A program made the position numbers and the translations under genes. A stretch of 25,678 bases of DNA, taken from positions 1 through 25,678 of the IMG/VR virus record IMGVR_UViG_3300040787_000029; one strand, written 5' to 3'. Position 1 is the stretch's first letter. Every line of letters starts with the position of its first letter. Source of the DNA: a virus. The notes beneath the pieces were generated by a model. That model saw nothing but the letters and a program-made list of their open reading frames with translations, was not told the origin of the DNA and did not search any database. Shown here in pieces: positions 3,481 through 19,107 of the stretch.

Positions 3481-3598
3481 GAGAATCGTGCTGCCGCACA
3501 CAACCGGAGGGACGATCGAGGGCGGACATTCCAGAAGCCGCCACGCCCTGCGCCGGGTTCACCCCGACAGCAGAGGGCCGATCCCAGGAAAGGACGCG

Positions 3599-3640: not shown

Positions 3641-3663
3641 GCGAGTTATGATCGGATGGGGGG

Positions 3664-4272
3664 TTGCCGCCGCGCGCTTTCTGGACGCTGTCAGAGGTCG
3701 CCGCCCGATGGGGGTGTCGCCCGGAGGATATCGCGGCCTGGGCGGCAGCGGGCCAGATCGAAATCTCGACCGTCGTCCCCCCAGTCGTCTGCGGCGGCGA
3801 GATCGTTGAAGGTCTGATGGCAATCAGCATGAACGATCTGATGCCGATGTTCCGCAGGGATGGGTCGGGGCCCGACACGAGGCGCGTGCGACGGGTTCGA
3901 TCGGAACGCCGATGGCTCTACGTCACCGATCCCAGTGAGGGGCTGATGGTTTCAAAGGCGGACCTCGTGCTGATGGCGGGCGAGATGGCCCGCTTCGAGG
4001 ACGAACACCGCATCTACGGGCGACGATCGGCTCCCGCCGTCGCGGTGCCGATCATGTCGAGCCAGTCGAAATACGACTGGGACGCCATGTGGGTGCACGT
4101 CCTGCAGCGCGTGCACGAGCAGGGCCTGCCGGAGACCCAGCGCGAGTTCGTGAACGAGATCCAGGATTGGTTCATCCGGCGATCCGACGATGGCGACGCG
4201 CCCGATGAGCGCACCATCCGGCGTCGTTTGACGCCTGCGTGGCGGACCCTGCGGGCTGAGGACGCCGATTAG
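3664..4272 (+). CDS. Excisionase-like HTH regulatory protein
   Basis: The 202-residue protein starts with a MerR/AlpA-like helix-turn-helix (FWTLSEVAARWGCRPEDIAA, about residues 6-25). A middle region contains WLYVTDPSEGLMVSKADLVL. The C-terminal domain contains GLPETQREFVNEIQDWFIRR and ERTIRRRLTPAWRTLRAED (about 145-200), a pattern I associate with proteins next to integrases in alphaproteobacterial elements. An in-frame stop at 3649-3651 leaves TTG at 3664 as the only plausible start, just after a run of Gs. It converges on the integrase gene with a 4-base overlap of stops. A recombination-directionality or regulatory role is inferred from the fold and position. Confidence 0.62.
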   Translation: MPPRAFWTLSEVAARWGCRPEDIAAWAAAGQIEISTVVPPVVCGGEIVEGLMAISMNDLMPMFRRDGSGPDTRRVRRVRSERRWLYVTDPSEGLMVSKADLVLMAGEMARFEDEHRIYGRRSAPAVAVPIMSSQSKYDWDAMWVHVLQRVHEQGLPETQREFVNEIQDWFIRRSDDGDAPDERTIRRRLTPAWRTLRAEDAD

Positions 4273-5510
4273 TTCCGCACAACAATCCGAGGCTTTGGCC
4301 GCATCAGTGCGGCAACCTCATCGACGCCAGTGCGGAGGGGCTGGTCGGCGAGGTGGGCGTATCGCTGCGTTGTCTTCGCCTGCGTGTGCCCGAGCAGCTT
4401 GCCGATCATCGCCAGAGACGCCCCGCGGCCGGCGAGCATCGAGGCGAAGGTGTGGCGCAGGTCGTGCAGGCGGACGTCCGTCAGCTCGGCTGCGGTCTGA
4501 ATAGCCTTCCAGAACCGCCGGATATCCTGCAGCGGCTGGCCGTCGACCTCGCCGGGAAAGAGCCAGGGACAATCCGCCGGCGCCGCCGCCCGCCGCAGCC
4601 GCACGATCGTCGCGACGTCCTCCGAGATCGGCACACGGTGGACCTTACGCTGCTTGGTTGTCGCGGCCTGCTTAGTCCAGATGCAGAGATTGAGATCGAA
4701 CTGCTCGAACCGCGCCAGCCGGACCTCGCCAAGGCGGGCGCCGGTGAGCATGCACATTCGGACGAGCGTCGCCGCCCGCTGATCCTCCGCCGCGGCAAGC
4801 GCATTGGCGAGCCGATCGACCTCCTCGAGCGACAGGAACCGATCCCGCTCCGTCTCCGCGCGGCGCAGGAAGCCCTCGGCCGGGTTGTCGTCGCGCATCT
4901 TCCATGGCCGTACCGAGAGGTTGAACATCTTCCGCAGTACCTCGCCGGTGCGGTTAGCCCGGATCGGCGTCGGTTTCGGCCCCTGCAGCGTGCGCCGGCC
5001 GCGAGACTTGGCCTTCTCCTTCGCCGGGCGGGGCCGTCCCTCGGCGATCTTAGTGAGCAGCCGCGCGACGTCGTCGGGCGTGATGTCGGCGACCAGTCGC
5101 GTCTTCCATTCCGGCTCGACGAGATTGCGGAGCATCGAGACCTGGTCCGACGCGTTCCGCGGCGAAAGACGCGGCAGATGCTGCTCGATGTAGAGGTTGA
5201 TCAGATCGGGGATCCGCGGAGCGGCCCGCTGCGCCTCCCGCCGCGCCATCGGATCGTCGCCGGCGTCGATCTCGCGGCGGAGTACTTTGGCACGCTCGCG
5301 TGCCGCGACGACGCTCCATTCCGGCCAGCGGCCGATGGTGAACTTCCGCTGCCGACCCTGGACCCAGTAGTGGAGGCAGAAGGCGCGCAGGCCGGAGGGG
5401 TGAACAACTGCGGAGAAGCCGAGGAGGTCGCTGTCGAAGAGGTGGTACTTCGTGCTCTTCAGGTCCGCTGCCTTGATCAGCTTCTCCGTCAATCTGTAGC
5501 GCTCTGTCAT
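4269..5510 (-). CDS. Tyrosine recombinase / integrase
   Basis: This 413-residue protein has the layout of prophage and island integrases. An arm-binding DUF4102-like N-terminus covers residues 1-95 (FDSDLLGFSAVV, then KFTIGRWPEWSVVAARERAK), followed by a core-binding SAM-like domain (about 100-215) and a catalytic domain (about 225-395). The catalytic residues are all visible: R259 in LTGARLGEV, a lysine near 289, H349 and R352 in RLHDLRHTF, H375 in LLGHT and nucleophile Y384 in TTQRYAHL. The enzyme is therefore expected to be active. It would catalyse site-specific integration and excision, probably at the tRNA-Met-derived att site near 11240. The convergent gene at 3664 is a likely directionality factor. 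Confidence 0.93.
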   Translation of the reverse strand: MTERYRLTEKLIKAADLKSTKYHLFDSDLLGFSAVVHPSGLRAFCLHYWVQGRQRKFTIGRWPEWSVVAARERAKVLRREIDAGDDPMARREAQRAAPRIPDLINLYIEQHLPRLSPRNASDQVSMLRNLVEPEWKTRLVADITPDDVARLLTKIAEGRPRPAKEKAKSRGRRTLQGPKPTPIRANRTGEVLRKMFNLSVRPWKMRDDNPAEGFLRRAETERDRFLSLEEVDRLANALAAAEDQRAATLVRMCMLTGARLGEVRLARFEQFDLNLCIWTKQAATTKQRKVHRVPISEDVATIVRLRRAAAPADCPWLFPGEVDGQPLQDIRRFWKAIQTAAELTDVRLHDLRHTFASMLAGRGASLAMIGKLLGHTQAKTTQRYAHLADQPLRTGVDEVAALMRPKPRIVVRN

Positions 5511-5660
5511 TCCGCAACCTCAAGTCGACCCTCCGCCACCACGCGTAGAGCCGCGCCTTATTCAAGAGAAATAGCGCTCCCCGCAGCTCACTTTTTCGGC
5601 CGGCGCATTCGATCCGCCTCGTGGCTCGCGACGGTTACGCGTGTCTACCCGGCGGGAGGA

Positions 5661-5713
5661 GGTGGCGGGGTGGCACTGGGTGGCGCCGCGGCTAGCAGAG
5701 GCGGTGCCACCGC
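5661..5713. repeat. GGTGGCA repeat cluster, right of integrase
   Basis: GGTGGC recurs at 5661, 5669 (GGTGGCAC) and 5680 within 27 bases. A near-palindrome GCGGTGCCACCGC follows at 5701-5713. The motif is the same as in the cluster at 3287-3409, so the integrase and excisionase-like genes are bracketed by it. The remaining bases of the 5511-5819 gap, between the divergent integrase and XRE/ImmA genes, show no gene. They probably hold promoters for both. Confidence 0.45.
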
Positions 5714-5819
5714 ACGTGGCTTGGATTGATGCTTCGGCGGTGATGCAGCTGCGCGGGAATGCTTCCAACGCAGCGCAGTCTCGTGCCACAAGCAGAGAGA
5801 ACGGATGGGGCGGCGCGCG

Positions 5820-7028
5820 ATGGCGGTCATCAAAGCACAGGTGAAGCCGGAACTTCTGTCGTGGGCCCGCGACACGGCGAAGGTGACCGCCGAGGACGCG
5901 GCGAAGGCAGCGAACGTGGCCGTCGAGCGCCTAGCGGCCTGGGAAGACACAGCTAGTGACGATCGCCCGACTCTCGGGCAGCTCCGCAGTCTCGCGTCGA
6001 AGTATCGCTACCCGCTGGCGGTATTCTTCCTGCCCGAGCCGCCGCGCGACTTCGCCCCGCTCCGCGACTTCCGGCGCATCCCGGATGTACCGGAGCGAGT
6101 CCTGTCGCCAAACTTGGCCTACCATATTCGCTCGGCATACGAGCGGCGTGAACTCGCGTTGGAGCTTTCGGAGGACCTTCGGGAAGCTGCCCCCAAGATT
6201 CCTGTACACGCAGTCCTCGACGAGAATGCGGAAGAGGTTGGCAGGCGCATCCGCGAATTTCTTGACGTCGACGAGGACAGCCAGCGGAAGGCAGCGCGCC
6301 AGGCTTTCGACTTCTGGCGGCGCCGTTTGGAAGAGCACGGGGTCCTGGTCTTCGTCATCAGTGGCCCCCACTACAGCGTCGGGCTGGATGAAATGCGCGG
6401 CTTTGCGATCGCTAAGGCGGAATTGCCGGTGATCGTCGTCAATGGCAAAGACTACAGTGCCGGCGGCAAAGCCTTCACCCTACTGCACGAATTCGTGCAC
6501 GTCCTGCTCGGCGAAAGTGCGATCTCTAACGGCGCCGGTGACGATCCGGGTCTGACTCCCGAAGAACAGCGGGTCGAGCGGTTCTGCGACGCGGTTGCAG
6601 CGGCAATCCTCATGCCCCGCCAAGCCCTGATGCGCTTCGATGAGGTGGCCGCGGCGGGCGAGCGACCGTGGAACGATGCGGAGCTGAAGCAGATCGCGCA
6701 GCAACTCGGCGTCAGCCGCGAGGCGCTCCTACTGCGCTTTGTCACGATCGGGCGGGCGAGTTGGAGCTTCTACATGAGCCAGCGTCCGCGATTCCGTGAA
6801 GAGTACCGGCAGGCGGCGGAGGAACGTACCAAGGACGACAGATCGGTGCAGATTAAGCGGCCAGTCATGCTGATGAGCTGGAACGGCCGCGGCTTCACGC
6901 AGCTGGTGCTGCGCAGCTACTATGGACAGCACATCACTCTTAACGACGTCGCCAGCTTTCTGGGCGCCAAGGTGAAGCACATTCCGTCGCTGGAGGAGGC
7001 TGCGTTCCGGCCTCGCCGTGAGGCGTGA
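5820..7028 (+). CDS. XRE-ImmA/IrrE metallo-endopeptidase regulator
   Basis: Residues 1-60 are a short XRE-type helix-turn-helix (VTAEDAAKAANVAVERLAAW). A linker with KYRYPLAVFFLPEPP follows, the hallmark of XRE-ImmA fusions. The metalloprotease domain has the zinc motif HEFVH at 223-227 and a downstream E253 (VERFCDAVAAAILMP). Family members cleave phage-type repressors or act as antitoxins of nuclease toxins. The next gene overlaps by four bases (GTGA), so the two products are made together. I start at 5820 because homologs begin near MAVIKAQVKPELL. ATG 5805 in the same frame is possible. A role as antitoxin or regulator of the PIN protein is inferred. Confidence 0.82.
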   Translation: MAVIKAQVKPELLSWARDTAKVTAEDAAKAANVAVERLAAWEDTASDDRPTLGQLRSLASKYRYPLAVFFLPEPPRDFAPLRDFRRIPDVPERVLSPNLAYHIRSAYERRELALELSEDLREAAPKIPVHAVLDENAEEVGRRIREFLDVDEDSQRKAARQAFDFWRRRLEEHGVLVFVISGPHYSVGLDEMRGFAIAKAELPVIVVNGKDYSAGGKAFTLLHEFVHVLLGESAISNGAGDDPGLTPEEQRVERFCDAVAAAILMPRQALMRFDEVAAAGERPWNDAELKQIAQQLGVSREALLLRFVTIGRASWSFYMSQRPRFREEYRQAAEERTKDDRSVQIKRPVMLMSWNGRGFTQLVLRSYYGQHITLNDVASFLGAKVKHIPSLEEAAFRPRREA

Positions 7029-7498
7029 GTCTAACCTATTGCATCGACACGAGCGCTCTTATTGCGGCCTGGCAGGAGCGGTACCCGCCTGAGAACTTTC
7101 CCCGCCTCTGGGAGCGCTTCGACGAGTTGATCGAGAAGGGCCGCCTTGTCGCCCCGGTCGAGGTACATCGCGAAACAGCGAAGCGGTCGGACGAGCTGCA
7201 TGGCTGGCTGAAGGCGAGACCCGGCATGTTTCGAGAGCTGGATGAGAAGATCCAGATCGAGGCCGCCAATGTTCTTCAAGCTCACCCGCGGCTGGTCGGC
7301 GAGCGAAAGCTACGTACATCTGCCGATCCGTTCGTCATCGCCCTCGCGCGCGTTGAAACGCTGCAGATTGTTACCGAAGAGAAGTTCACCAACTCGGCAA
7401 ACCGGCCGAACATCCCAGACGTCTGCAAAGCGCTGAACATGCCGCGGTGCTTCGACCTTCTGAAGCTGATTCAGGCCGAGCGCTGGGTGCTCGGCTGA
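7025..7498 (+). CDS. DUF4411 PIN-domain protein (putative toxin ribonuclease)
   Basis: This 157-residue protein has a PIN-like arrangement of acidic residues: D8 in YCIDTSALIAAW, E near 45 in APVEVHRET, D near 101 in TSADPFVIALA, and acidic residues in VTEEKFTN. It matches DUF4411 from memory. PIN domains are metal-dependent ribonucleases, often toxins. It starts at GTG and overlaps the end of the XRE-ImmA gene (GTGA), the coupling typical of toxin-antitoxin pairs. The antitoxin role of the partner is inferred from this pairing. About 530 bases without a clear gene follow, so the two genes form a self-contained unit. Confidence 0.75.
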   Translation: MSLTYCIDTSALIAAWQERYPPENFPRLWERFDELIEKGRLVAPVEVHRETAKRSDELHGWLKARPGMFRELDEKIQIEAANVLQAHPRLVGERKLRTSADPFVIALARVETLQIVTEEKFTNSANRPNIPDVCKALNMPRCFDLLKLIQAERWVLG

Positions 7499-8033
7499 AG
7501 GACAATCTCGCTACCGCGGTGTGGCTCACTGCCTCATCCTTCCGCAGAACACAGCGTTGTGGCATCCAGAGGGCTAAAGGGCCAAGTCCGCCGCAGCTTG
7601 ATCCGCTGCGGTCGCGGTCCGTCCGAGAGTTGCCCGAGCCCAAGAGCAATTCGGAGCTGCTGCGAGTTAGGGTCCCCAAACGGCATCATAAGGGCGCCTA
7701 TGCGCGAACGAGGCGTGAGCTGGAGTTTGATATCGCCGGACTGAGGACACACACATCGGCCGTCGGTATCTCCGATCTCGATGCCCCGAACGCGGCCCTT
7801 GCGGCGGGTGAGCAGCGACAGCGCCATCGCGCAGATGAACGCCGGTCAGCGGTTGAGCTGCCGCTGGCGCGACATCGGCCTGGACGGTCGGAACGTCGGC
7901 CAGCCCGTAAACGGGTGTTACTTACGCCGCCCGAGCGGTAGTTTGACAGTGTGCCCGCTCGGCATCGCTCTCGCGAAGCGTCGAGTCGTATTCACGGCAA
8001 CCACTCAGTTCGGCAGTCCCGGGAAGGAATCTC
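7499..8033. other. Non-coding or decayed spacer
   Basis: No frame in this 535-base stretch has both a plausible start and a recognisable domain. The longest minus-strand frame (7534-7827) lacks a ribosome site. Near the right end are a short inverted repeat CCCGTAAACGGG (about 7905-7916) and a consensus-like TTGACA at 7943-7948 without a good -10. It probably holds the mcrB promoter and the remains of an older insertion. Confidence 0.4.
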
Positions 8034-9791
8034 ATGGCACGGCTCTCGAATTATCCCGAAGCAACGTTTATCGCCCTTGAACACATCAAGGGTACAGCGC
8101 TGGTTCGGTTCGACAGCCTTTTCAATCCGGAGCGGTCCCTCTGGACTCAGCAAAACTTGAAGCGCTTCCATGCACTCTTTGTTGAGCGTTTTGACTTGGG
8201 GACAGGAAAGTTCTTTGAGAAGTGGCGCAAGCAACTCGAGGACGCGAATGACGACATCTTCCAACTTGCGGCTGAAGTTCTTTACGTTCAGCAGTTCTTC
8301 ACAAGTTTAACAGGCCCCGACAAGAAGTTAGAGAACGTGCGCACGGTGCTGGGATGGTGCGCCCACCCAACGACGATCCCGGATTGGGCCGTCAATGGAA
8401 TCCAGACCGGCCTTGCCGGTGACCAGAGCTTCAATCAGCACCGGCCGTATCACATAGCTTGGCTTATCGAGTACCTGCTTCATTGGCACGGCTTCGATGC
8501 CCAGCGGCGCGATGAGCTTCTTTCAAATCCATCGATGTTTGCAGACGACGTCCGCTCCTTCGAGTCCACGCATGGGGCGCATCAGCCAATGCGGGAGGCA
8601 TGGCTCTATATGATTTTCCCGGATCACTTTGAAAGCATCTCCTCCCGGAAGGACAAGCGGGCTATTCGGGAGGCGTTCTCCGACCTCCTTCAGCATGGTC
8701 CTACGTCAGACATCGACGCTGATCTCCTAGACATACGGGGGAGGCTAACCACCGATGCCGGCGATGGCTTCCACTTTTACCGATCGCCAATCATCGAGCG
8801 ATGGCGATCGACTAAAAAGCGCACGCCACGAGAAGATCGGGCATCCGACATCTCGCCTGTTTCAATAGAGCATCGGTCGGGCGATGACCGCTCCGCCGAT
8901 CTCGACGATATCGCTGAGGCCCTCTTTTTAGAGCCACTAGGCATGCTCGGGCAGTGGGCGGATATGCTTCTTGAGGATCGTCAAGCGATCTTTCAGGGCC
9001 CGCCAGGTACTGGAAAAACCTACATCGCTCGCAAGTTGGCGTGGGCCTTGTCAGGCCACGACAGTCGCGTCGAGGTCGTGCAGTTCCACCCCTCCTACGC
9101 CTACGAGGACTTCGTGGAGGGCTACCGGCCGACCCCTTCGGGGGGCTTCGCGCTGAAGCCGGGGCCACTAAAGCGGCTTGCGAAACGCGCCCAAGCCGAT
9201 GACCAACATCACTATGTGCTGCTGATCGACGAGATCAATCGTGGTAACATCGCCAAAATATTCGGTGAGATGTACTTTCTGCTGGAATACCGCAATGAAG
9301 CTATCACGCTGCAGTATTCAGAGGAGAGCTTTTCGCTTCCTCCGAACCTCCTCATCTTGGGCACGATGAATACGGCGGACCGATCGATCGCGTTGCTCGA
9401 CATGGCGATCAGGCGACGCTTCCGCATCATCGATCTTTTTGTGGAGAAGCCTCCCCTGAGAGGGCTGCTGCGGCGGTTCCTAACCGCTAAGGCACCTGAC
9501 ATGATCTTTCTGGCCGACATGCTGGATGAGGTAAATCGGCGCCTCGCGGACCCACACGTCTCTGTCGGTCCGAGCCACTTTCTACTGAGGGACATGGGAG
9601 GTCTGAGCGAGGAGAAGGCCGAGCGCATCTGGACGCACTCCGTGGTTCCTGCTCTTTCGGACCGGTTCTTCGACCGGCCGCAAGACCTGAAGGCGTTCGA
9701 GTACAGAAGCCTGCGCAACCGCACGATGGATGACAAGGTCCAGGCCGCAAGCAACGAAGACGAGCCCGCGGATGCGTCGGATACCGCTTGA
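8034..9791 (+). CDS. mcrB: McrB-like AAA+ GTPase of a type IV restriction system
   Basis: This 585-residue protein has a variable N-terminal region (1-290), presumably the modified-DNA-recognition part, followed by the McrB motor. Walker A is GPPGTGKTY (322-329), FHPSYAYEDFVEGYRP lies at 351-366, the Walker B/McrB signature IDEINRGN at 398-405, and MNTADRSIALLDMAIRRRF at 445-463. McrB binds modified cytosine in foreign DNA and hydrolyses GTP to drive translocation, while McrC supplies cleavage. GGGAAGGA precedes the ATG. The N-terminal domain does not look like the DUF3578 of E. coli McrB, so the target modification cannot be predicted. The mcrC gene overlaps the 3-prime end. Confidence 0.9.
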   Translation: MARLSNYPEATFIALEHIKGTALVRFDSLFNPERSLWTQQNLKRFHALFVERFDLGTGKFFEKWRKQLEDANDDIFQLAAEVLYVQQFFTSLTGPDKKLENVRTVLGWCAHPTTIPDWAVNGIQTGLAGDQSFNQHRPYHIAWLIEYLLHWHGFDAQRRDELLSNPSMFADDVRSFESTHGAHQPMREAWLYMIFPDHFESISSRKDKRAIREAFSDLLQHGPTSDIDADLLDIRGRLTTDAGDGFHFYRSPIIERWRSTKKRTPREDRASDISPVSIEHRSGDDRSADLDDIAEALFLEPLGMLGQWADMLLEDRQAIFQGPPGTGKTYIARKLAWALSGHDSRVEVVQFHPSYAYEDFVEGYRPTPSGGFALKPGPLKRLAKRAQADDQHHYVLLIDEINRGNIAKIFGEMYFLLEYRNEAITLQYSEESFSLPPNLLILGTMNTADRSIALLDMAIRRRFRIIDLFVEKPPLRGLLRRFLTAKAPDMIFLADMLDEVNRRLADPHVSVGPSHFLLRDMGGLSEEKAERIWTHSVVPALSDRFFDRPQDLKAFEYRSLRNRTMDDKVQAASNEDEPADASDTA

Positions 9792-10977
9792 GGAGTTCCG
9801 GCGATCGGAACCCGTAGCCCTTTCGGCGGACGAGCGGCAAGTACTTGCCCGACTCTATCCGGGGATGCGGATCGAGACGTCGCCGGTCCGAGAGAGCGAA
9901 TTTCATCTGACTCCCGATCAGCATGTGGGAATGGTCTGCCTTAGCGATCTCACCCTCGAAATCCGGCCAAAGTTCCCGACTACTTCGGTGCTGTTCCTCA
10001 TCGCCTATGCCTGCGAGGCGATCAGTTGGTCGGAGGACATTGGGGAGTACGGGCATGATGCTGAACTCTCCGACATCATCGCTGTCGTCTTTGCGCGTTT
10101 GGTTGAGCGCACCACTAGACGAGGGCTGTTGGCCGGCTACTTGACTGCGGAGGAGGCCGTCTCCACGCCAAGGGGCCGAATCCTCTTTGACGAGCAGATT
10201 CGTCGTCGGATGGGGTATTCTTTCCCCGTCGAAGTGCGGCACGACGAGTACACCACGGACATTCTGGAGAACCGATTGCTTCTTGCCGGCCTTGCGGCGC
10301 TTGGAAGCTTGCCACTGAGATCAGAGCACGCTCGCCAGGAACTTTCTCGGGCCGAGCGTCTGTTCGGCAACGTCTCGGCAGTTCGATATGAGCGGGGCAG
10401 AGTTCCTGACGTGCTCATCACTCGGGTCAATGGCCACTATCGTGGAGCCATCTCGCTAGCAAAGCTAATCATCGAGGGGGTGTCTATCGATCTAAGGGAC
10501 GGGCCGTCCTGCGGATCCTCGTTCCTCGTCGACATGAACGTGGTGTTCGAGCGATTCCTGCGACGCAGTCTAAGGTCTGCCCTGGACTTGGATGAAGCGA
10601 GCTTTCCTGATCGGCCGCCGCGGCTCCAGCTCGACGTTGGTGGCCGGGTCTCCTTAGCGCCGGACCTCTGCGTGGTGCGTGACTCGAGAGTAACCTGGAT
10701 CGGGGACGCAAAGTACAAGCGGCTCCCGCCCAGCGCGTACCAGAACGCGGACCTGTACCAGTTGCTGGCGTATGCGATTGCAACAGGTCTGCCTAACGGC
10801 ACACTCATATACGCCGCGGATGCGGGTGTGAACGCAGGGAATTACATCGTTCGCAATGCCGGCAAGGTCCTACGTGCGATCTCCATCGATCTTGCCGCAC
10901 CGCCCGCTGCAATCCGGCGCCGTGTTGAGGATATTGGAGACCAGATCCGAGCGTCTTTTGGTGGACGCGAAAGCTAG
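9772..10977 (+). CDS. mcrC: McrC-like nuclease subunit
   Basis: The 401-residue protein carries a McrC N-terminal beta-rich domain (1-240, including VCLSDLTLEIRPKFPT) and a C-terminal PD-(D/E)XK nuclease. The nuclease shows DMNVVFERFL (254-263), PDL (297-299) and WIGDAKYK with D312 and K314 intact. McrC activates the McrB GTPase and cuts DNA. I start at ATG 9772, which overlaps mcrB by 20 bases. An in-frame ATG at 9730 would add 14 residues without clear similarity. Both subunits look complete, so the system is probably functional. It lies next to the tRNA-derived att site. Confidence 0.9.
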   Translation: MRRIPLEEFRRSEPVALSADERQVLARLYPGMRIETSPVRESEFHLTPDQHVGMVCLSDLTLEIRPKFPTTSVLFLIAYACEAISWSEDIGEYGHDAELSDIIAVVFARLVERTTRRGLLAGYLTAEEAVSTPRGRILFDEQIRRRMGYSFPVEVRHDEYTTDILENRLLLAGLAALGSLPLRSEHARQELSRAERLFGNVSAVRYERGRVPDVLITRVNGHYRGAISLAKLIIEGVSIDLRDGPSCGSSFLVDMNVVFERFLRRSLRSALDLDEASFPDRPPRLQLDVGGRVSLAPDLCVVRDSRVTWIGDAKYKRLPPSAYQNADLYQLLAYAIATGLPNGTLIYAADAGVNAGNYIVRNAGKVLRAISIDLAAPPAAIRRRVEDIGDQIRASFGGRES

Positions 10978-11082
10978 GACTAAGGTTCGTTCTCCAATGG
11001 CTCGCTCTGCGCGAGAAGCCAAAGCCCGCCTGCCAACAGATGGCGCACTTCTCGCCCGCCAGCTCCCGGCTTCCTCAGGGAC

Positions 11083-11102
11083 GGGGCAACACAGGGGCAA
11101 CA
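11083..11102. repeat. Paired GGGGCAACA direct repeat, left of att core
   Basis: GGGGCAACA occurs at 11083-11091 and again at 11094-11102, a period of 11 bases or about one helical turn. It lies about 140 bases left of the tRNA fragment. Phased short repeats at this distance from a core are typical of integrase arm-type sites. No other feature is evident between 10978 and 11239. Confidence 0.35.
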
Positions 11103-11239
11103 GGCGTACGCCGGTTTGTTCATGTTCTGTGCAAGCAAGTGCAGTTGGATGCGGCTGAACCGAGCGAGGGAGGGAAAAGATATCAAAGGCATACAGCCTA
11201 AGAGATTGTTTTCCAACAGAACTGCAATCATGGCGCCAC

Positions 11240-11288
11240 CAGGCTCATAACCTGAAGGTCGTAGGTTCAAATCCTACCCCCGCAACCA
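11240..11288 (+). other. 3-prime fragment of initiator-type tRNA-Met gene (att site)
   Basis: The anticodon arm is complete: CAGG, then loop CTCATAA with anticodon CAT at 11246-11248, then CCTG. Variable loop AAGGTC follows, then the T arm GTAGG-TTCAAAT-CCTAC (11261-11277). The acceptor 3-prime strand CCCCGC-A, discriminator A and encoded CCA end at 11288. The A in the position opposite base 1 and the overall sequence fit initiator tRNA. No D arm or 5-prime acceptor strand lies upstream, so this is not a functional tRNA gene. A 3-prime tRNA copy of about 49 bases is the classical scar of tyrosine-recombinase integration. Confidence 0.85.
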
Positions 11289-11304
11289 ACTTCTTGCGCG
11301 TTAT

Positions 11305-11345
11305 CAAACGCTTAAGCGCCGCCCTCCGGGGCGGCGTTTGCGTTT
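11305..11345 (+). terminator. GC-rich hairpin terminator after the tRNA fragment
   Basis: CGCCGCCC (11317-11324) pairs with GGGCGGCG (11329-11336) around a TCCG loop and is followed by TTTGCGTTT. Outer arms CAAACGC (11305) and GCGTTTG (11334) offer an alternative fold. It lies 17-29 bases after the CCA and is probably the original terminator of the tRNA gene, which would make it chromosomal sequence or a copy of it. Confidence 0.55.
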
Positions 11346-11374
11346 CCACCGCCCGTGGAAGCACTGTGGAAGCA
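11344..11374. repeat. GTGGAAGCA direct and inverted repeats, right of att core
   Basis: GTGGAAGCA occurs at 11355-11363 and 11366-11374 with an 11-base period. An inverted TTCCAC at 11344-11349 forms a palindrome with the first copy. The spacing equals that of the repeats left of the core. These may be integrase arm-type sites of a second element to the right. Confidence 0.35.
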
Positions 11375-11645
11375 AGAGGGGCCGAAACCCTTCATATTGC
11401 TGCGAAAACCGGGACCGGCCCCTGCTGCCGCGCTTCACTTGTGCGGCCTCAATCCACCGAAGCCGCGGTTCTCGGGCCTGAGCTAACATCGGCTCGGATT
11501 TTGCGGCGCAGGCTCCGCCGGTAGACGTTCATCGCAGGTGGGCGCGGCCAAAAACGAAGGGGATTTGGCACGGGGCCTTTTGACCTGTGGATGACTCGAA
11601 TCCCAGCGAAGTGTGCGATCCGCACGCATCCTGAGCAATTTGGCT
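11375..11645. other. Intergenic region without recognised gene
   Basis: I see no supported gene here. Short frames on both strands lack ribosome sites and domains. The stretch lies beyond the 3-prime end of the nuclease gene and before the att-flanking repeats. It may hold the end of an element or remnant chromosomal sequence. Confidence 0.4.
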
Positions 11646-14585
11646 TCAAAAAGGAAAGCGATCTATGCGATCAAGGAAAGCGCTTTGAGCGTCGGCAACT
11701 CCCTCCGTAGCATAGAAGTTCATTGGTTGCGGTGTGTCAAAAATAAGAAGACCCTTAACCTCTGGCAGGACATTTAGTCTCAATTGCTTCTGCAGGGCCT
11801 GCCGGTTTGCACGTAGGTACTCAACGCGCCGCAAGTGTCTTAATAGTTTGTCGGGCCGCTCGCGCCCTTTGCTATCTACCAACGTGCGGCCCCGATACTC
11901 AGAAAGGCGCGAAGCAACTTCAGGCTCTGTTCGGCACAGCCTAAGGTTCTTCGCTTCTATCACCCAGACGACGGAATGGTCGGCCTTGATGGCTAGCACA
12001 TCGACGTCACCCAGTTCCGCTTCAACCTTCTGGTTCAACACGGCCGAGAGCTTGCAACGCGGTGTCGCAGATAGCCCCAGTTCGTTGAGCCGTGCAGCAA
12101 CCCTTTCCTCGAATTCCTCTCCGGAAGCCTTGCCCCGCTCGCCAGCGAACCGCCGCGCTGCGTCCGATTGCCAGAAGGCGTTGTTCAGGTGCCCAGTCCC
12201 AAGGCCCGAAATCGCGTACATCATCGCGTCCATCACAAGTGCCGGCGCCACGAGAAGCAGGGGATCCTCCGCGTTCTCTACCATCAGCAAAGGCCGACTG
12301 ATCAGAGAGTGGTTGCGGTCGAACCGGCACAAGTCCCGCTCCGCCTCGGGAAGACCGGCGTACCAGTTGGCGCGTTTCTGCAGCGTCAAGCGATCGAGGA
12401 GGGGACGCACATTCAGGCCCGCGTAGTCGCGACAGTCATGCAGCAGCTGTTCTATAGTGGAGAGCCGCTCGAAAAACACATCTTCGCCGCGATCCTCAGC
12501 AATCCGGCCGAGCAAATAAGGGAAGTTCACGTAGGCCTCGGCCGCGATCTGGTACTCAGCTTCAATCGCGGCGCGAAGCCCTTCTTCCCACGCCTGAGCT
12601 GGATGATCATCCTTCGCATTCATGCGGTCGGAGACATACGCGGCCGCTGCCTCGTCAAGAGACTTGGCATTGGTCCACACGGCACTCGGCTCCAGGAGCT
12701 TCTGAACCGTGCCTCGCTCGCTCATCAGGTCTCCCGTAGGACTGATTTTAAGGCGCGGCTCGATCATTCTCGAGCGGATAACGGGAAAAAGCTGACCGTT
12801 TCCGATCAACAGCATGGCTGAAGCATACATTTCGTCCAGGTCAGCTTCCCCGGGCACCCGCCCGCCGTCAGGGTTTGCCTCGCACGCCGCGATCTCGGCC
12901 AGCGCTTTTGTCATGCGCTGGACGGCATTGACCTCATTTTGCCTTTCAAATGCCCTACGGTCGGCCTCCGCACCGTCGATCGCCCTCAAGGCACGAATGC
13001 TGGTCCGCCAGGTCGACTGCTCATGCCGCGCAGACTGATATGCGCGCACCAGCGCCCTCGTCAGGTGTTGTCTGCCGAAATCGCGGATCGTCTCGATCAA
13101 TGAAGCGAGCAAGCTTTCCCGATAGGCCGCCAAGAACTGCTTGCACTCATCCTCGCCTGTGATCTCTAGACCCATCGCTCGATCGCGAAAGGTCCACACA
13201 GACCCCAACTTGGCGAGCGCGAGGGCAGAAAAGGAGACGGGGGTGAAACTCTCGACCAAGCCCCGTCCGGCTAGCCTGTCGAGCGGAGTGATCGCTTCTC
13301 GCGCGTGCATCCACCGCCAGTCCTGGGAAGGGATGATCTCCTCTACGCTTTCGCGAAGTGCCTCGCGCCCCGGACTTTGATCGCCCGCTAAGCCGTCGAG
13401 GACAGCCGCGGCAAGGAGCACCTCTGCTGAATTCTCCGCCGAGCGTAGGAACGGTAGCCACGCCTCGGTGATCTTAACGGCCACCACGCCTTCCTGCGGT
13501 TTCTCTATTTCGACCACCTCCGTTCCGGGCGGGTCGATGGGCATGGTGGCTTGATCGATAGGTTTGCCCAGGAGGTCGTCAGGCGGTTCTAGAAAAATCC
13601 TGGCCGGATGCGCCGGGAACGCACCAGGAAACCGGTCGATGACTCCGGGTCCTACGGCCGCGAGCCATTCCATAACACCGTTCCATGCGCGGTATCTTAT
13701 CTCTGAGTTGCCCTTTGCGGAGCGGTGCGTTTCGATCCACCACGTACGATCTTGGTAAGCGAATGCTCCGAGCAGGCGGCCGTCCTCAAGATCGCGCACG
13801 CTTGCGAAGACAGGCTTGAGCGCATCCTTTCCCCAGTCCATCCTTTGGACGCGCTTAAAGGAACCATCTGGCGTTGGCAGCGCGCGATAGTCCCGGCGCA
13901 CGGTCCCTTCGCGCCGTGGTTCTCGTAGTGCGTCAGTTGGAAGGCTCATGAAGGCCGGGGGTACCATTTCGGGCATATCGTCCGGGACAATGCTTCCCCC
14001 GGTTGTTCGCCAGAAGCCGAACATGTTGATCAGCCCGTTAGGGTTCAGGAAGTCGTATCCATCCGCGAGCAGTCTGTCTTCTATCTGCGTCATGCGCTGG
14101 ATGTCTCGGAATTTTCCGTTTTCACAAGCACCCAAAATGGCTGTGTCGGCGAAGCTCATTATTATCAGTTGCCAATGCGGTGGCGGCGCCCTGTCGTCTA
14201 TGGTGGGATGAACGATTTGTGGTGGACCCCATCCCGATGTCAGAAGAACGGTCGTGCTTCGCGTAACAAACTGACGGGACGCCAGGAACTCCCAAAAACG
14301 CGAGACGTCCTGTTTTATTTTTTCATTAACACTGCCAGTAATGTGGCGCGTGCTCATATAGCCCTCCGCGGGGAAGCCGCTGAAGGCGCACGGGAGTTGA
14401 ATCACATGGAGAAAGCGCCCCCTGTCGTATTCGCAAACGGAAGCTCTCAGGAAGTCTTGATCGGGCGGCGAGAGATTGATGTGACTGGCGGGCCAGAATG
14501 CCGTTGCTTCAGCGTAACGTTCCTGTGCCTCGAGCAGTCTGACATGAAATAGGTCCCCGAGGCCGCCCTGCAGGGCGGCATTCAC
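11646..14585 (-). CDS. Large protein with C-terminal PD-(D/E)XK nuclease (3-prime part of split gene)
   Basis: This 979-residue ORF starts at GTG. The last 160 residues form a nuclease-like domain: GEEFEERVAARLNELG (about 821), then LGDVDVLAIKAD with D860/D862, and VVWVIEAKN with E877 and K879, the PD-(D/E)XK catalytic set. The preceding 800 residues are long, helix-rich and unrecognised. Bases just upstream, read in this frame, encode AVRAVIV running straight into NAALQGGLGDLF. The natural protein therefore probably includes the 259-residue ORF upstream, joined by a one-base change in a C run (minus strand) at 14606-14609. Nuclease activity suggests a defence role, which is inferred. Whether this half is still translated through the GTGA overlap is open. 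Confidence 0.72.
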   Translation of the reverse strand: MNAALQGGLGDLFHVRLLEAQERYAEATAFWPASHINLSPPDQDFLRASVCEYDRGRFLHVIQLPCAFSGFPAEGYMSTRHITGSVNEKIKQDVSRFWEFLASRQFVTRSTTVLLTSGWGPPQIVHPTIDDRAPPPHWQLIIMSFADTAILGACENGKFRDIQRMTQIEDRLLADGYDFLNPNGLINMFGFWRTTGGSIVPDDMPEMVPPAFMSLPTDALREPRREGTVRRDYRALPTPDGSFKRVQRMDWGKDALKPVFASVRDLEDGRLLGAFAYQDRTWWIETHRSAKGNSEIRYRAWNGVMEWLAAVGPGVIDRFPGAFPAHPARIFLEPPDDLLGKPIDQATMPIDPPGTEVVEIEKPQEGVVAVKITEAWLPFLRSAENSAEVLLAAAVLDGLAGDQSPGREALRESVEEIIPSQDWRWMHAREAITPLDRLAGRGLVESFTPVSFSALALAKLGSVWTFRDRAMGLEITGEDECKQFLAAYRESLLASLIETIRDFGRQHLTRALVRAYQSARHEQSTWRTSIRALRAIDGAEADRRAFERQNEVNAVQRMTKALAEIAACEANPDGGRVPGEADLDEMYASAMLLIGNGQLFPVIRSRMIEPRLKISPTGDLMSERGTVQKLLEPSAVWTNAKSLDEAAAAYVSDRMNAKDDHPAQAWEEGLRAAIEAEYQIAAEAYVNFPYLLGRIAEDRGEDVFFERLSTIEQLLHDCRDYAGLNVRPLLDRLTLQKRANWYAGLPEAERDLCRFDRNHSLISRPLLMVENAEDPLLLVAPALVMDAMMYAISGLGTGHLNNAFWQSDAARRFAGERGKASGEEFEERVAARLNELGLSATPRCKLSAVLNQKVEAELGDVDVLAIKADHSVVWVIEAKNLRLCRTEPEVASRLSEYRGRTLVDSKGRERPDKLLRHLRRVEYLRANRQALQKQLRLNVLPEVKGLLIFDTPQPMNFYATEGVADAQSAFLDRIDRFPF

Positions 14586-15361
14586 GATGACGGCTCTGAC
14601 TGCAAGGGGCCAGGACTGACGACAACAAGTTCGTTTCCGACCGCGAGCAGGGGATGGAACTCGAGCGGCGTCTCGCCAACCTCCCTGCTACCGATCAGCC
14701 CCAGCTGAGCTTCATCGAGGATAAAGGGAGCGAGTGCTTTTGGGTCGATCTCAAGCGCCGCTAGGTCGCGGGCCGAAAAAGTGACCAAACGAGCGAGCCT
14801 CTTGAGTGCCGCCGAATGGGGGAGGGGCATCAAGCCTTGGGGTATGCCGCCGGACTCCGTGGTTCGATCCAGGTCTGCGCGCCTTGCGATCTCTTCGCTT
14901 AGTCGAAGTAGAGCATTTACTACATGGAGCGTGTCGTCCTTGCGCCGCGCCGACGGAAGCGTCTCGAATGCCTCGATTACTACCTGTGAGAAGGCCGTTG
15001 CCGATTCCCATTGCCCCGGAAATATCCGGAAGTTCCCTGCACCCGTTGCAAGACTGTCGCAGAGGAGGTCTTCGATCGGATCCTCCATGTGGAGGATGCC
15101 AGCCTTTGCCAGTCCGCCATTCAGCGCATACTCGATTTCCTTGAAGTTAGGTTCCCGCCGGCCACGCGACTTCGAGAGAACCAAACGCAAGAGCCAATCC
15201 AAGCGGATTCCATTAGCGTGAAAATCGGGGACAACGGTCAATCCTGACAATATTGGAGCAACATAGTTGCGCTTCCATCGCAACAGGATTGCGAGCTCGT
15301 CATGCGCGTCCATGAATGAGGAGTCTGGAGTAGTCATAACACGAGGTTCCCAAGCCGACAT
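14582..15361 (-). CDS. N-terminal part of the split large nuclease protein
   Basis: This 259-residue ORF is helical with conserved-looking stretches (RWKRNYVAPILSGLTVVPDF, LEFHPLLAVGNELVVVSPG). The last residues (PLQSEPSS) look like out-of-frame sequence. One extra C in the run at 14606-14609 would continue VVVSPGPL into AVRAVIVNAALQGG, which is the start of the next ORF. It then reads as residues 1 to about 250 of one 1,240-residue protein. In-frame ATGs at 15361, 15337 and 15313 all lack a strong ribosome site, so the start is uncertain. If the frameshift is real and not compensated, this is a pseudogene. A naturally coupled two-subunit pair is the alternative. Confidence 0.6.
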   Translation of the reverse strand: MSAWEPRVMTTPDSSFMDAHDELAILLRWKRNYVAPILSGLTVVPDFHANGIRLDWLLRLVLSKSRGRREPNFKEIEYALNGGLAKAGILHMEDPIEDLLCDSLATGAGNFRIFPGQWESATAFSQVVIEAFETLPSARRKDDTLHVVNALLRLSEEIARRADLDRTTESGGIPQGLMPLPHSAALKRLARLVTFSARDLAALEIDPKALAPFILDEAQLGLIGSREVGETPLEFHPLLAVGNELVVVSPGPLQSEPSS

Positions 15362-15424
15362 GGGAGCATCAATCGGAGTTCACCAATTAACAATTCTGGT
15401 GTAGTGGAGTCGGCCATCTGGGGA

Positions 15425-15565
15425 TCATCGACCATGCTCGTCGGCTTCGATTGCGGACTCCTCGGTGTCGTTGCCGACGTGCCGGTATGCTACGGTCTTG
15501 GCCGCGCCAAAATCCATCTCGTGACGATGTCTACTTTGGTGGCGCATGATGACGTGGCTCATCAT
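15425..15565 (-). CDS. Possible coupled small ORF (46 aa)
   Basis: The stop of the ImmA gene overlaps an ATG in a TGATGATGA sequence, with GGGAGG a few bases upstream. This is a convincing translational-coupling signal. The ORF encodes a 46-residue, His/Arg-rich protein starting MMSHVIMRHQSRHRHEMDFG and ending with an acidic tail. No family is recognised. A short ATGATGA/TCATCAT hairpin at 15546-15565 overlaps its start and might modulate translation. It could be an extra component of the ImmA module or chance. Confidence 0.33.
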   Translation of the reverse strand: MMSHVIMRHQSRHRHEMDFGAAKTVAYRHVGNDTEESAIEADEHGR

Positions 15566-16503
15566 CAGCCTCCCGCTTTCCCCGCCATAAACATTTCGAA
15601 GGTATCCTCTGTTGGCTCTTCCTCGAGTTCGGCTGCTTCCCAACGTGATGGCGCTCGGTCGGGATAGATTAGAATGGAGATGGTCATCATCTCATTGCTG
15701 GGCGAGAACACGGTCATCTCGTGGACGGGTTCATTCCCCAGCCAAACGCCCGGTTCGTGACGCTCACCATGGCGGCCGGTGTCCGCATCCACGTCCCGCG
15801 CTGCCAGTGACCGCGCGGGAAGCTCGATCACAGTCTGCCGCGCGGCGTAGAAGATCCCGGACCTGAGCAAGGGCTGGCTTGACCAGGCCCAGTCGATGAA
15901 ACCCTCCTTGCCGACGACGATCATGGCGCGCTTGTCGGTGATGGTCATCCATTTCAGGATCGCCGCTGTCAGCGAGACGGCATAGCGATCGGCCAACTCG
16001 GTCATCACATCGATGTCGATGGCGCGTCCCTTGATCTGCGCGCGGAAATCGTCGAGCGGCATCAGGAGATAGGAAGCGAAGGTGTTTGCCTCCGCCTCGA
16101 TCCTGTTCCGGGCACCATCCCAATCGGCCATGTTCCGGTTGGTGCATTGGAGCCCGCCGGGATGATCTTGCCGATGCAGGAGGTAGTGGCCCAACTCGTG
16201 AGCAAGTGTGAAGTTGCGCCGCCCGGCGGACCGGATGGACTCGTTGTAGATGATGCCCCATTCGCCAGAGCTGTCCGGGCGCGGCATGAGCATGCCCTCG
16301 ACGCCCTTGGACAGGTTCAGGCCGCCGACCATCGAGATCGGCGCTTCTGGAAAGACCTGCCGCGAAAAATCCTGCGCCAACGCCGCCACGTCCACGGGGA
16401 ACCGCGGCAGGCCATGTGCCGCCTGATGCAGCGACAGGATCTGCGTGAGGCGGATCGCCCAACCCTGCGGTGTCGTGGGCAGGCTCAATCCTTCTTCCCC
16501 CAC
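15565..16503 (-). CDS. ImmA/IrrE-family metallo-endopeptidase
   Basis: This 312-residue protein has the zinc protease signature HELGH at 102-106 in FTLAHELGHYLLH. A downstream glutamate (E136 or E138, RIEAEANTFASYLLMP) provides the third ligand. The N-terminus (1-60) is a helical lead-in. The C-terminal 100 residues are beta-rich and end in an acidic tail (AAELEEEPTEDTFE). ImmA/IrrE proteases cleave XRE-type repressors upon a signal such as DNA damage. The gene overlaps the XRE gene upstream by 19 bases, so the protease and its likely substrate are co-expressed. The opposite-strand two-gene operon shares the regulatory region. Confidence 0.88.
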   Translation of the reverse strand: MGEEGLSLPTTPQGWAIRLTQILSLHQAAHGLPRFPVDVAALAQDFSRQVFPEAPISMVGGLNLSKGVEGMLMPRPDSSGEWGIIYNESIRSAGRRNFTLAHELGHYLLHRQDHPGGLQCTNRNMADWDGARNRIEAEANTFASYLLMPLDDFRAQIKGRAIDIDVMTELADRYAVSLTAAILKWMTITDKRAMIVVGKEGFIDWAWSSQPLLRSGIFYAARQTVIELPARSLAARDVDADTGRHGERHEPGVWLGNEPVHEMTVFSPSNEMMTISILIYPDRAPSRWEAAELEEEPTEDTFEMFMAGKAGG

Positions 16504-16805
16504 ATGTCGATCATCTGCTGGATCTTGTCCTGATCCTCAGGCTTGAGCTTGCTGAACTTCCGAAAGAACGCCTCCTTCAGAACCTCATCACCAGGCTCCG
16601 CGGTGTCGTCGAGCAAATAGTCAGTGGTGACTTCCAGGGCTTGGGCGATGCGGGTCAGCTTTTCGCCTGAGGGCTTTCGGGTATCGCGGTTCTCGAGTTC
16701 CCAGATGTAGCTCTTGCTCGAGTCGGTGAGCTCGGCGAGCTTGTCGAGTGAGTATCCCTTTTCCTGGCGGTGGCGCTTGATCTTGGCGCCGAGGGACGTG
16801 GTCAT
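16485..16805 (-). CDS. XRE-family helix-turn-helix repressor (106 aa)
   Basis: Residues 6-66 form a classic Cro/C1-type HTH (LGAKIKRHRQEKGYSLDKLA, then SKSYIWELENRD and EKLTRIAQALEVTTDYLLDD). A charged C-terminal tail containing LKPEDQDKIQQMIDMWGKK may mediate dimerisation. It probably binds the two palindromes at 16839-16856 and 16887-16908, controlling both itself and the divergent operon. It is likely to be inactivated by the adjacent ImmA protease. DNA binding is well supported by the fold. The operators and cleavage are inferred. Confidence 0.9.
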   Translation of the reverse strand: MTTSLGAKIKRHRQEKGYSLDKLAELTDSSKSYIWELENRDTRKPSGEKLTRIAQALEVTTDYLLDDTAEPGDEVLKEAFFRKFSKLKPEDQDKIQQMIDMWGKKD

Positions 16806-16838
16806 CGCGTCATCCTTGATTCCTTGGTGCTGGCGGCG

Positions 16839-16856
16839 TGTTCGGTATGCCGAACA
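16839..16856. promoter_or_regulatory. Palindromic operator 1 (TGTTCGG-TATG-CCGAACA)
   Basis: This perfect 18-base inverted repeat has 7-base arms around TATG and lies 34 bases upstream of the XRE start codon in the divergent intergenic region. It shares GTTCG/CGAAC half-sites with operator 2. A homodimeric XRE protein would bind such a site. Confidence 0.7.
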
Positions 16857-16886
16857 AGATCGTGCCGCGCAAGTAGACGTGATGGC

Positions 16887-16908
16887 GCGTTCGATTTGTA
16901 TCGAACGC
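16887..16908. promoter_or_regulatory. Palindromic operator 2 (GCGTTCGAT...ATCGAACGC)
   Basis: This perfect inverted repeat has 9-base arms around TTGT. Its centre is exactly 50 bases from the centre of operator 1, and it lies 53 bases upstream of the 407-residue gene. The shared half-sites and regular spacing suggest co-operative binding, or looping, by the XRE repressor. Confidence 0.7.
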
Positions 16909-16961
16909 CAGCGTATCGCTGCGCTGATTCCCCACTCCTCCCCGACACGAAAGGGCCCCTT

Positions 16962-18185
16962 ATGACCGCGATCACCGCATTCCTCCGCAAGACCCCGATC
17001 ACCCGCCTGCAGGACTACTTCACGGCCGGCGGGTTCACTTCGCTTCCGCCGATCGATTGGGCCAAGCCCGAGCCAGAGGTCGTCGAACCGCTAATCAAGG
17101 CCGTGGACGGCATGTCCGACGACGAAAAGCAGCGGGTCATCCTCGACGCCGGTCGTGTCGCAGCGCTCGCCGATGAGCCGGGCCAGAACGCGCTGCAGAA
17201 CGTCGTGCTGAACCGTGCATTCTTCGACACCCTCGAGGGCGCCAACAACCGTTCGCTCTGGGTCTTCCTGAAGGAGCCTGATCGCTTCCGCCTGGCGGAA
17301 GAGGTCCGCTACAACGACGAACGGCGCCGGGGGCGCTCGTGGAGCGGCTTCCAGGTCGAGAAGGACTGCACGGTCCGCCGCGATCCGACCTCCGTTGCGG
17401 CCTTCACGAAAGCCGTCCGCGACCGCTTCGAGACCCCGCATGTCCATGTCGATATCTTCGACCGGCATCGCATCATCCTCGATGACCAGGAATGCGATCT
17501 GGTGCAGGTCGCCGTTTATCGCGAGGGGCGGCCGGAGGACATGCTGGGCTTCGATGCGAACAGCACGCTGTCTCGGCGCATTGTGAAGCCGGTTTTCGAG
17601 GCGGCCCTGACCTATGAGGCCGAAACCGGCGTCATCGAAGTCGTGGCCAACACGCTCGAGGACCGGAGGGACCTGACCGCGTTCATGGCGCGGGATCTGC
17701 TCGGGATCGACTTCAAGGAGAAGCACATCCCATGGCGCGAATACGACTTGAGCATGCTTCTGAAGCCCTTCGATTTCCCGACCGATCCCGCGGACGGGAT
17801 CATGGGCGTGACCGTGAAGGAGCTGCGCTTCATGGAGCTGGGGGAGCGCGGCGAGCGCATCACGCTCGAGTCCATGTCGGGCGCCGAGCGGTCGATCTGG
17901 GAGATGGCCGAGAAGCGGATCGGTCTCGACATCGGTGGCTCGGGGCACCTATTGCCGGTCGCGACCGAGGCACCGGAATGGGTCATCACGCGCGCACGGT
18001 TCACGATCAAGTTCCATCCCGGACCCGAGGGAGGCCGCGGGAAATCGCTGACGCTCACCGTTACGATGCCCCATGGCTGCAACCTCAAGGACATGACCCC
18101 GCATGAGCGCCTGATCGGCGAGAAGTACCTGCGGCGCTGGGGCATCCTGACCGACACCGCCGAGATCGGTGACCTCGTTGACTAA
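16962..18185 (+). CDS. Uncharacterised protein of the divergent ImmA/XRE module (407 aa)
   Basis: The start at 16962 is set by AAAGGG six bases upstream. The same frame extends to 16770, but that part crosses the operators. The protein begins MTAITAFLRKTPITRLQDYF and is soluble and acidic, with no signal or membrane segment. Alternating strands and helices include HVDIFDRHRIILDDQECDLV (about 160-180) and IEVVANTLEDRRDLTAFMAR (about 225-245). No nuclease, protease or NTPase motif is recognised. The next gene overlaps by 17 bases. Divergence from an XRE repressor suggests expression is held down until the repressor is removed. Function is unknown, and an effector or sensor role is inferred from context alone. 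Confidence 0.8.
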   Translation: MTAITAFLRKTPITRLQDYFTAGGFTSLPPIDWAKPEPEVVEPLIKAVDGMSDDEKQRVILDAGRVAALADEPGQNALQNVVLNRAFFDTLEGANNRSLWVFLKEPDRFRLAEEVRYNDERRRGRSWSGFQVEKDCTVRRDPTSVAAFTKAVRDRFETPHVHVDIFDRHRIILDDQECDLVQVAVYREGRPEDMLGFDANSTLSRRIVKPVFEAALTYEAETGVIEVVANTLEDRRDLTAFMARDLLGIDFKEKHIPWREYDLSMLLKPFDFPTDPADGIMGVTVKELRFMELGERGERITLESMSGAERSIWEMAEKRIGLDIGGSGHLLPVATEAPEWVITRARFTIKFHPGPEGGRGKSLTLTVTMPHGCNLKDMTPHERLIGEKYLRRWGILTDTAEIGDLVD

Positions 18186-19107
18186 GTCGGCTGTGGATCT
18201 GCTGCTCCAGGCGATGGAAACCCGCGCCGGCAAGGTGCAGGTGGCCACGCTGAAGCAAGTGGCGCCTCGGGCAGCAGACAAGCTGCTCGACGCCAGGCTG
18301 TTGGTGGCGACCGGGCGCATCCCGGTCGTCGCCGCCATGGATGCCTATGAGGACGAGCCCATCCCGGCGGAGTGGTGCCCGGAGCGCGGGCAGTTCGGCT
18401 ATCGCAACAGCGTCGGTCGTTGGATAACTGTCGAAGCGGGGGAGATCGCCGCCTGTGTCGTCGATTTTCCTCTGGCATTCGCGAAGATGCTGCTGGCCTT
18501 CGAACGCGCCGGGCCTTCGCGCCCGAGCCCCTTGATCGACGGATTCGTCTGGGACGTCGGAACCATCAGGCTGACGGGCGCGAGTTCGCCGGTGCCGGTC
18601 TGGTTCGCGCGGCGCCTTTCTGATCCTGCCGTCTGGACGCGGCTCGATGCCCTTCTCGAGCGCAGGCCGCCTGAAGAGGTCCGGGTGATTCTGACGTCGA
18701 CACCGGGTGATCGCATCCCCATCACACCCAAAAAGCGGAACGTGATCGTCGGCGTGGCCGATGTGCTCGGCACCTCAGGCAAGCTGGCGATCTCGCCGCA
18801 ATCGCTTGGTGCGCGCGTGTTTCCGGGTCAGGTTCAGCGCCGGTTCCCGATCGATCATTCGGAGGAATGCGGGCTGGTCTGGCACCGCGGTGAAACCCTG
18901 ACCTTCGGCGGAGACAAGCAGCGTCAGCTGCTGCAGATCCTGTTCGCAGCCTACTGGTCCAAGTCGCCCGTCCTTCGGATAGCGGCAGTGCTGGAAGAGG
19001 CGGGCTACGGTGGTCAGGTGAACACGCTCAAGAAAGCCTTCGGCCGCCGCAACGACTGGCAGCGATTCATCAGATTCGATGACGGGAACTGCTGGATCGA
19101 TCCCTGA
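18169..19107 (+). CDS. Uncharacterised protein with C-terminal winged-helix-like domain (312 aa)
   Basis: This ORF starts at GTG 18169 and overlaps the previous gene by 17 bases (GTG 18192 is an alternative). Residues 5-55 look like a small helical domain (LLLQAMETRAGKVQVATLKQ). The middle is beta-rich, with VWDVGTIRLTGASSPVPVWF. The last 70 residues resemble a winged helix: GDKQRQLLQILFAAYWSKSP, VLRIAAVLEEAGYGGQVNTL, then KKAFGRRNDWQRFIRFDDGN. A DNA- or protein-binding wHTH at the end of an otherwise novel protein fits a regulatory or recognition subunit that works with the 407-residue partner. I recognise no named family. Confidence 0.78.
   Translation: MTSLTKSAVDLLLQAMETRAGKVQVATLKQVAPRAADKLLDARLLVATGRIPVVAAMDAYEDEPIPAEWCPERGQFGYRNSVGRWITVEAGEIAACVVDFPLAFAKMLLAFERAGPSRPSPLIDGFVWDVGTIRLTGASSPVPVWFARRLSDPAVWTRLDALLERRPPEEVRVILTSTPGDRIPITPKKRNVIVGVADVLGTSGKLAISPQSLGARVFPGQVQRRFPIDHSEECGLVWHRGETLTFGGDKQRQLLQILFAAYWSKSPVLRIAAVLEEAGYGGQVNTLKKAFGRRNDWQRFIRFDDGNCWIDP

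Follow-up and report, generated by a model that had tools for sequence, protein, structure and literature searches.

Tandem arrays of genetic elements at a single tRNA gene are well documented, the 3919 islands of the Islander collection including 125 tandems of two or more elements and 4 with at least three (PMC4383910). In such tandems a single intact tRNA gene is accompanied by several displaced 3′ copies of like orientation and by an integrase for each element; the anticodon-loop crossover (subsite A) is named among their standard subsites (PMC4383910). Prophages of Rhodobacteraceae have been reported in tRNA genes including tRNA-Met (PMC8224337), and these, together with the tRNA hot spots of S. 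meliloti (PMC11476347), resemble the present case in being alphaproteobacterial prophages in tRNA genes, tRNA-Met among them; the parts of these two sources available to us describe neither tandem occupancy nor an initiator site for the pair of elements discussed here, referred to as A and B. Tandem tRNA-targeted elements are already known, and what is new is this A/B case, which is unusually clear and well resolved. The DNA under study, called the window, is a 25,678-base IMG/VR record, a 25.7-kb linear fragment (a circular record was ruled out, with no terminal repeat found and no ORF required to run through a junction of the two ends), for which a megablast search of a phage collection returned no match. 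Unlike the Islander tandems, it holds only a tRNA fragment with the inner seam, and the ownership of the two sides was settled by arm repeats and by the gene content of relatives. This 49-base fragment is very probably the seam between two different temperate phages that occupy a single tRNA-fMet gene one behind the other, in an alphaproteobacterium of Rhodobacterales type.

Two features define the fragment:

11240 to 11288, plus strand: 3′ part of initiator tRNA-fMet, shared att core (49/49 identity; A arm to the left, B arm to the right)
11244 to 11250, plus strand: anticodon loop CTCATAA, putative crossover region (A-type and B-type right ends share an identity block whose left edge lies here)

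The fragment, CAGGCTCATAACCTGAAGGTCGTAGGTTCAAATCCTACCCCCGCAACCA, matches intact tRNA genes over their 3′ part, from the anticodon stem to CCA, without a single mismatch (49/49), and a chance match is excluded because the match is both long and exact. These bases recur in at least 119 stretches in each of two collection scans. The intact genes that share them are alphaproteobacterial, carry a CAT anticodon and read CGCGGGGTGGAGCAGCCCGGTAGCTCGT / CAGGCTCATAACC...ACCA; identity to them breaks off exactly at 11240, and ARAGORN detected no complete tRNA in the 25,678-base window. The program labels the intact homologues tRNA-Met(cat). They start with C, and C1 lies opposite A72 (5′-CGCGGGG / CCCCGCA-ACCA), the mark of initiator tRNA-fMet and not of elongator tRNA-Met. 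The copy of tRNA-Met from the anticodon arm through CCA, lacking its 5′ half, that had been claimed from the sequence-only reading is therefore real, and can be refined: the intact gene behind it is that of the initiator tRNA-fMet. In some genomes this target gene sits after 23S and 5S rRNA, with a 5S rRNA upstream in G139:C28 and in G041:C8 (where the tRNA lies at the contig end), and no 5S rRNA was found within 1.5 kb of tRNA-fMet in L360, L322 or L364; "end of an rRNA operon" was rejected as a general description of the site, being true of some tRNA-fMet copies only. Matches of the window to plasmids were confined to the tRNA block and to weakly matching integrase DNA, and the three hits inspected were all intact tRNA genes. 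The same tRNA-fMet 3′ end also occurs in many short marine viral contigs with very different flanks (L003-L121; AT-rich, SAR11-like), and to judge by these differing flanks, unrelated phages appear to target tRNA-fMet as well.

The left part of the window, from 1 to 11239, is assigned to prophage A:

1 to 471, minus strand: PHROG 6836 protein (DUF6362-like), which adjoins terminase and portal in relative G011
488 to 1450, minus strand: replication initiation O-like protein (PHROG 345; 68.8% in G066)
1783 to 2358, minus strand: conserved PHROG 9210 protein (82% in G066)
3664 to 4272, plus strand: conserved PHROG 13283 protein beside the integrase gene (PHROG, G066 comparison)
4269 to 5510, minus strand: tyrosine integrase of A (Arm-DNA-bind_3 and Phage_integrase by Pfam; PHROG 1)
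5805 to 7028, plus strand: cargo, IrrE-like metallopeptidase (Pfam PF06114)
7025 to 7498, plus strand: cargo, DUF4411 PIN-like protein (Pfam PF14367)
8034 to 9791, plus strand: cargo, McrB-like AAA ATPase (Pfam PF07728)
9730 to 10977, plus strand: cargo, McrC (Pfam PF10117)

The window thus holds, besides a tRNA 3′ fragment running through CCA, a tyrosine integrase gene within the element. This integrase is 55-66% identical to 25 viral relatives and 92.7% identical in amino acids to its closest relative, at G066:C35:16950-18182 on the minus strand, whose neighbours match window positions 1-4272 at 62-82%. A tRNA-fMet 3′ copy lies at 25757 of the same contig, approximately 7.6 kb from that gene and in the same relative orientation, and because G066 pairs a closely related integrase with such a copy, the integrase and the fragment of the window belong together. 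The suggestion that an integrase 6 kb away fits the fragment agrees with these data, as the gene starts 5.7 kb to its left, reading away from it, and G066 has a like layout; the proposed tyrosine-recombinase scar is likewise borne out by the presence of the same tRNA-fMet 3′ end around the integrase gene in 17 of the 25 viral relatives, as counted in the fetched stretches only. Relatives of A (G066 and viral records L244-L268) share the arm-binding and catalytic domains of the integrase, the tRNA-fMet 3′ end and the adjoining replication and regulatory genes, but differ in cargo, which in the window (IrrE-like, DUF4411, McrB/McrC) fills the stretch between integrase and fragment. Terminase and portal genes were found in A relative G011, while the window itself holds no structural or packaging genes. 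The A-type right end of G066, unlike that of the window, borders on chromosomal DNA.

What follows the fragment, from 11289 to 25678, is a second phage, B, whose features are as follows:

11313 to 11345, plus strand: GC-rich hairpin with a weak T tract just past the tRNA end (-29.2 kcal/mol for 11289-11345, z -4.1)
11646 to 14585 and 14582 to 15361, minus strand: cargo, two ORFs jointly matching defence protein Upx (PADLOC Upx 2.5e-83, 2.5e-29)
15565 to 16503, minus strand: cargo, CapP (PADLOC capP 4.7e-71)
16485 to 16805, minus strand: cargo, CapH (PADLOC capH 1.4e-32)
16962 to 19107, plus strand: two conserved proteins (PHROG 37634 and one without assignment), upstream of the replication operon
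20209 to 20418, plus strand: small helix-turn-helix protein, excisionase-like by inspection (DNA conserved in G001, G002, G307)
20415 to 25678, plus strand: replication operon with SSB-like protein, Cas4 exonuclease, helicase and the start of a primase-like gene cut at the record end (PHROGs)

Window positions 11240-11408 are 92-93% identical to the DNA found at the intact tRNA-fMet and just after it in Paracoccus subflavus (G001:C5:72-239), in Tropicimonas (G002:C13:218212) and in other genomes, the P′ arm DNA of B being 91-93% identical to that of P. subflavus (NZ_SISK01000014), Tropicimonas sp. IMCC34043 (NZ_QMEK01000006) and G307:C4. The replication operon is 81-99% identical in amino acids to G001:C5 and G002:C13, and 90-98% identical to G307:C4; A and B each have separate replication genes by PHROG assignment. 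In G001 and G002, B ends 41-61 kb onward with an integrase of its own, 32% identical to that of the window, and a displaced tRNA 3′ copy; with tape measure, tail protein and endolysin genes present in P. subflavus, B is a complete phage in Paracoccus subflavus and Tropicimonas. There its left neighbour is an intact tRNA and not, as in the window, another prophage. The integrase of B is present in G001, G002 and G307, and the B of the window would carry its own beyond 25678. The hairpin is probably a terminator brought in by B for the tRNA that it rebuilds. Cargo beside the arm differs between the B prophages, those of P. subflavus, Tropicimonas and G307:C4 giving no Upx or CapPH match. The Upx-like protein of the window is split, whether naturally or by a frameshift, over two overlapping ORFs (979 and 259 aa) that match different parts of one profile; it adjoins the CapP/CapH regulator pair, with which no CBASS effector was seen among the proteins scanned.

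The notion that the fragment gives a precise boundary holds as regards prophage A and must be revised for its right side, where a second prophage begins, so that two elements are bounded: the fragment is at once attR of prophage A and the truncated attL of prophage B. The binding sites of such integrases are paired repeats on the two attP arms, and one pair of this sort lies on each side of the fragment:

11083 to 11102, plus strand: A arm-type repeat pair GGGGCAACACA GGGGCAACA, period 11 (window left arm GGGGCAACACAGGGGCAACA; 9/9 repeat, P about 0.001 by shuffling)
11355 to 11374, plus strand: B arm-type repeat pair GTGGAAGCACT GTGGAAGCA, period 11 (window right arm GTGGAAGCACTGTGGAAGCA)

Each pair is a 9/9 repeat, a level reached in 0.1-0.25% of shuffles (0.4-1.2% when any period from 8 to 14 is allowed), and from their position and pairing these 11-bp direct repeats are predicted integrase binding sites. 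The left arm is identical at 20 of 21 positions to A's own P′ arm and at 19 of 21 to its P arm, both in G066, where the intact tRNA with CGGGGCAACACACGGGCAACA (C18) is set against TGGGGCAACACACGGGCAACA at the right end (C35); the right arm matches B at 21 of 21 positions and is the same as the arm to the right of the intact tRNA-fMet in B prophages. In nine controls the two arms of one element agree at 17-20 of 21 positions, whereas those of the window agree at only 14; these controls (B in G001, G002 and G041, the complete B attP of L310, the small G007 element, two G307 prophages, one of G041 and A in G066) were picked by the analyst and are non-independent, several being B, and the A pair of G066 spans two contigs. 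Matching repeats on both arms, as a complete attP of one phage would have, are not what the window displays. The A arm motif alone, sought in viral contigs, was set aside, its four matches all lacking the tRNA-fMet core.

The same seam is present in assembled chromosomes. On the single contig G307:C4, three prophages follow one another: an intact tRNA-fMet stands at 266882, 3′ copies lie at 318522, 367571 and 426383, and the integrases are found at 311334, 361314 and 423399. To the left of the copy at 367571 is an A-type element (integrase 59%), and to its right is B (replication proteins 90-98%). In G041:C21 the intact tRNA at 78 precedes an A-type integrase at 46166 on the minus strand and a copy at 51441, after which B begins; the right end of this B lies at C12:988816, and the bases after it match those after an intact copy on C19, in an empty-site comparison. 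Both relatives thus bear out the prediction made from the sequence alone, with an intact gene to the left and a further 3′ copy to the right, and an intact cognate tRNA at the other end, in the same orientation, is present in G307, G041, G001 and G002. Further mixed seams, with the B arm on the right and other left neighbours, were found in G049, G139, G265 and G310 (the latter equal to viral contig L309). Among 149 sampled genomes of one family, 101 have an intact tRNA-fMet, and at least 26 of these have surplus 3′ ends, at least 10 with two or more extra, although these figures come from pattern counting in draft assemblies and the extra copies need not lie at one gene. Two other layouts were observed. 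A further natural array lies within the one contig G111:C1 (L420, L421), where an intact tRNA-fMet at 965190 is joined by 3′ copies at 1016344 and at 1017784; the final interval spans only 1.4 kb and has GGTGCTAC arm repeats. In G066:C18 (L419:650-907) an intact tRNA-fMet with an A-type right arm is separated by ten Ns from a second intact tRNA-fMet, a layout that probably reflects an element left out in scaffolding.

Other explanations of the locus were weighed. The fragment could be the intact attP of a single phage, flanked to the left by integrase and cargo and to the right by replication genes, since phage genes occur on both sides and an attP would also consist of a tRNA 3′ piece with two arms, an arrangement of which L310 provides an example in an IMG/VR contig. 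The disagreement between the window's arms at a level below that of true pairs nevertheless makes this very unlikely, as do the use of another integrase by the complete relatives of the right half and the A-type arms at both ends of the closest relative of the left half; the B helicase, moreover, was found in 0 of 11 viral records with an A-type integrase, an observation of limited weight (13 records and genomes were searched) made with a query that does match B prophages. A recombinant phage with the left arm of A and the right arm of B is possible. Joining of A's attR and B's attL from different molecules through the 49-base tRNA repeat, as an assembly chimera, would fit the multi-copy nature of the tRNA-fMet repeat, at which assemblies break and many contigs start or end, and the origin of the source record as a fragment from the IMG/VR collection. 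Such an artefact is decidedly unlikely in view of the merely 49 bases of the common block and of the recurrence, inside bacterial assemblies, of the A-type/B seam in G307:C4 and G041:C21 and of the B arm beside other left neighbours. Finally, fragment, integrase and orientation are all consistent with a simple attR at which A ends and ordinary chromosome follows, and in G066 chromosomal gyrB does lie within 5-8 kb of the A-type right end; since 11289-25678 is a phage that elsewhere begins at an intact tRNA, this account has next to no chance of being correct.

The tandem of two prophages, in which the two sides of an internal fragment have different owners, could have formed as follows. The attP of each phage would carry the 3′ part of the tRNA gene, and the integrase would recombine within the anticodon loop (11244-11250), the point from which the right ends of both A-type and B-type elements share the tRNA sequence, the right end of B reading ...CGACACGA / CTCATAACC at this block; integration would therefore rebuild the tRNA on the left and displace a 3′ copy to the right end. 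The copy displaced to the right end of A would double as the first bases of B. B is likely to have inserted first, and A most likely second, into the tRNA gene rebuilt by B, because a new element enters the rebuilt gene and pushes the older one away; this order is not readable from the sequence. The full array would hold a displaced 3′ copy with the arm GTTGGAAGCA... and a B-type integrase at the right end of B, and both elements may still be mobile. The outer boundaries, the intact tRNA and B's integrase lie outside the record because it is a linear 25.7-kb fragment.

The genes beside the seam are probably virus-defence genes, as predicted from profile matches: A contributes McrBC, while B contributes the Upx-like ORFs and CapP/CapH. 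The same slots in relatives give profile matches to DzbA/DzbB-like proteins (G066), HEC-03 (G041), a PD-T4-6-related protein kinase (G307) and PDC-S28 (G001:C25), and the B slots of G041 and G307 match McrB/McrC-like proteins. GC content is 57-63% at approximately 6-20 kb around the seam, as compared to 66-70% in phage genes. This GC valley of the window (6000-20000) coincides with the defence-type cargo of both phages. In A-type relatives, the slots between integrase and tRNA fragment (L417:8442-10366, L414:6365-7690, L354:12421-16879, L297:16904-19492) hold HEC-03, kinase, Dzb-like and PDC-S28 matches. The seam might even act as a moving defence locus, in which the joined cargo could travel as a unit between phages or hosts through co-excision or through recombination of the ends, a proposal that starts from A and B having the tRNA core in common while differing in arm-binding specificity, and which we consider improbable; the joined block could then comprise IrrE/DUF4411, McrBC, Upx and CapPH, at about 5.8-16.8 kb.

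The useful part of these observations lies in the sharp evidence of one tRNA fragment dividing two viruses, and in the arm-repeat test, in which paired 11-bp repeats separate attP, same-type tandem and mixed tandem from sequence alone. When a viral contig contains a solitary tRNA 3′ fragment, the border so marked may be one between virus and virus, and not necessarily one between virus and chromosome; virus boundary calls at such seams would otherwise fuse two phages into one. Given the extra 3′ copies in the sampled family, tRNA-fMet is a site at which elements land repeatedly, and the defence-type genes at the prophage ends meeting there vary.
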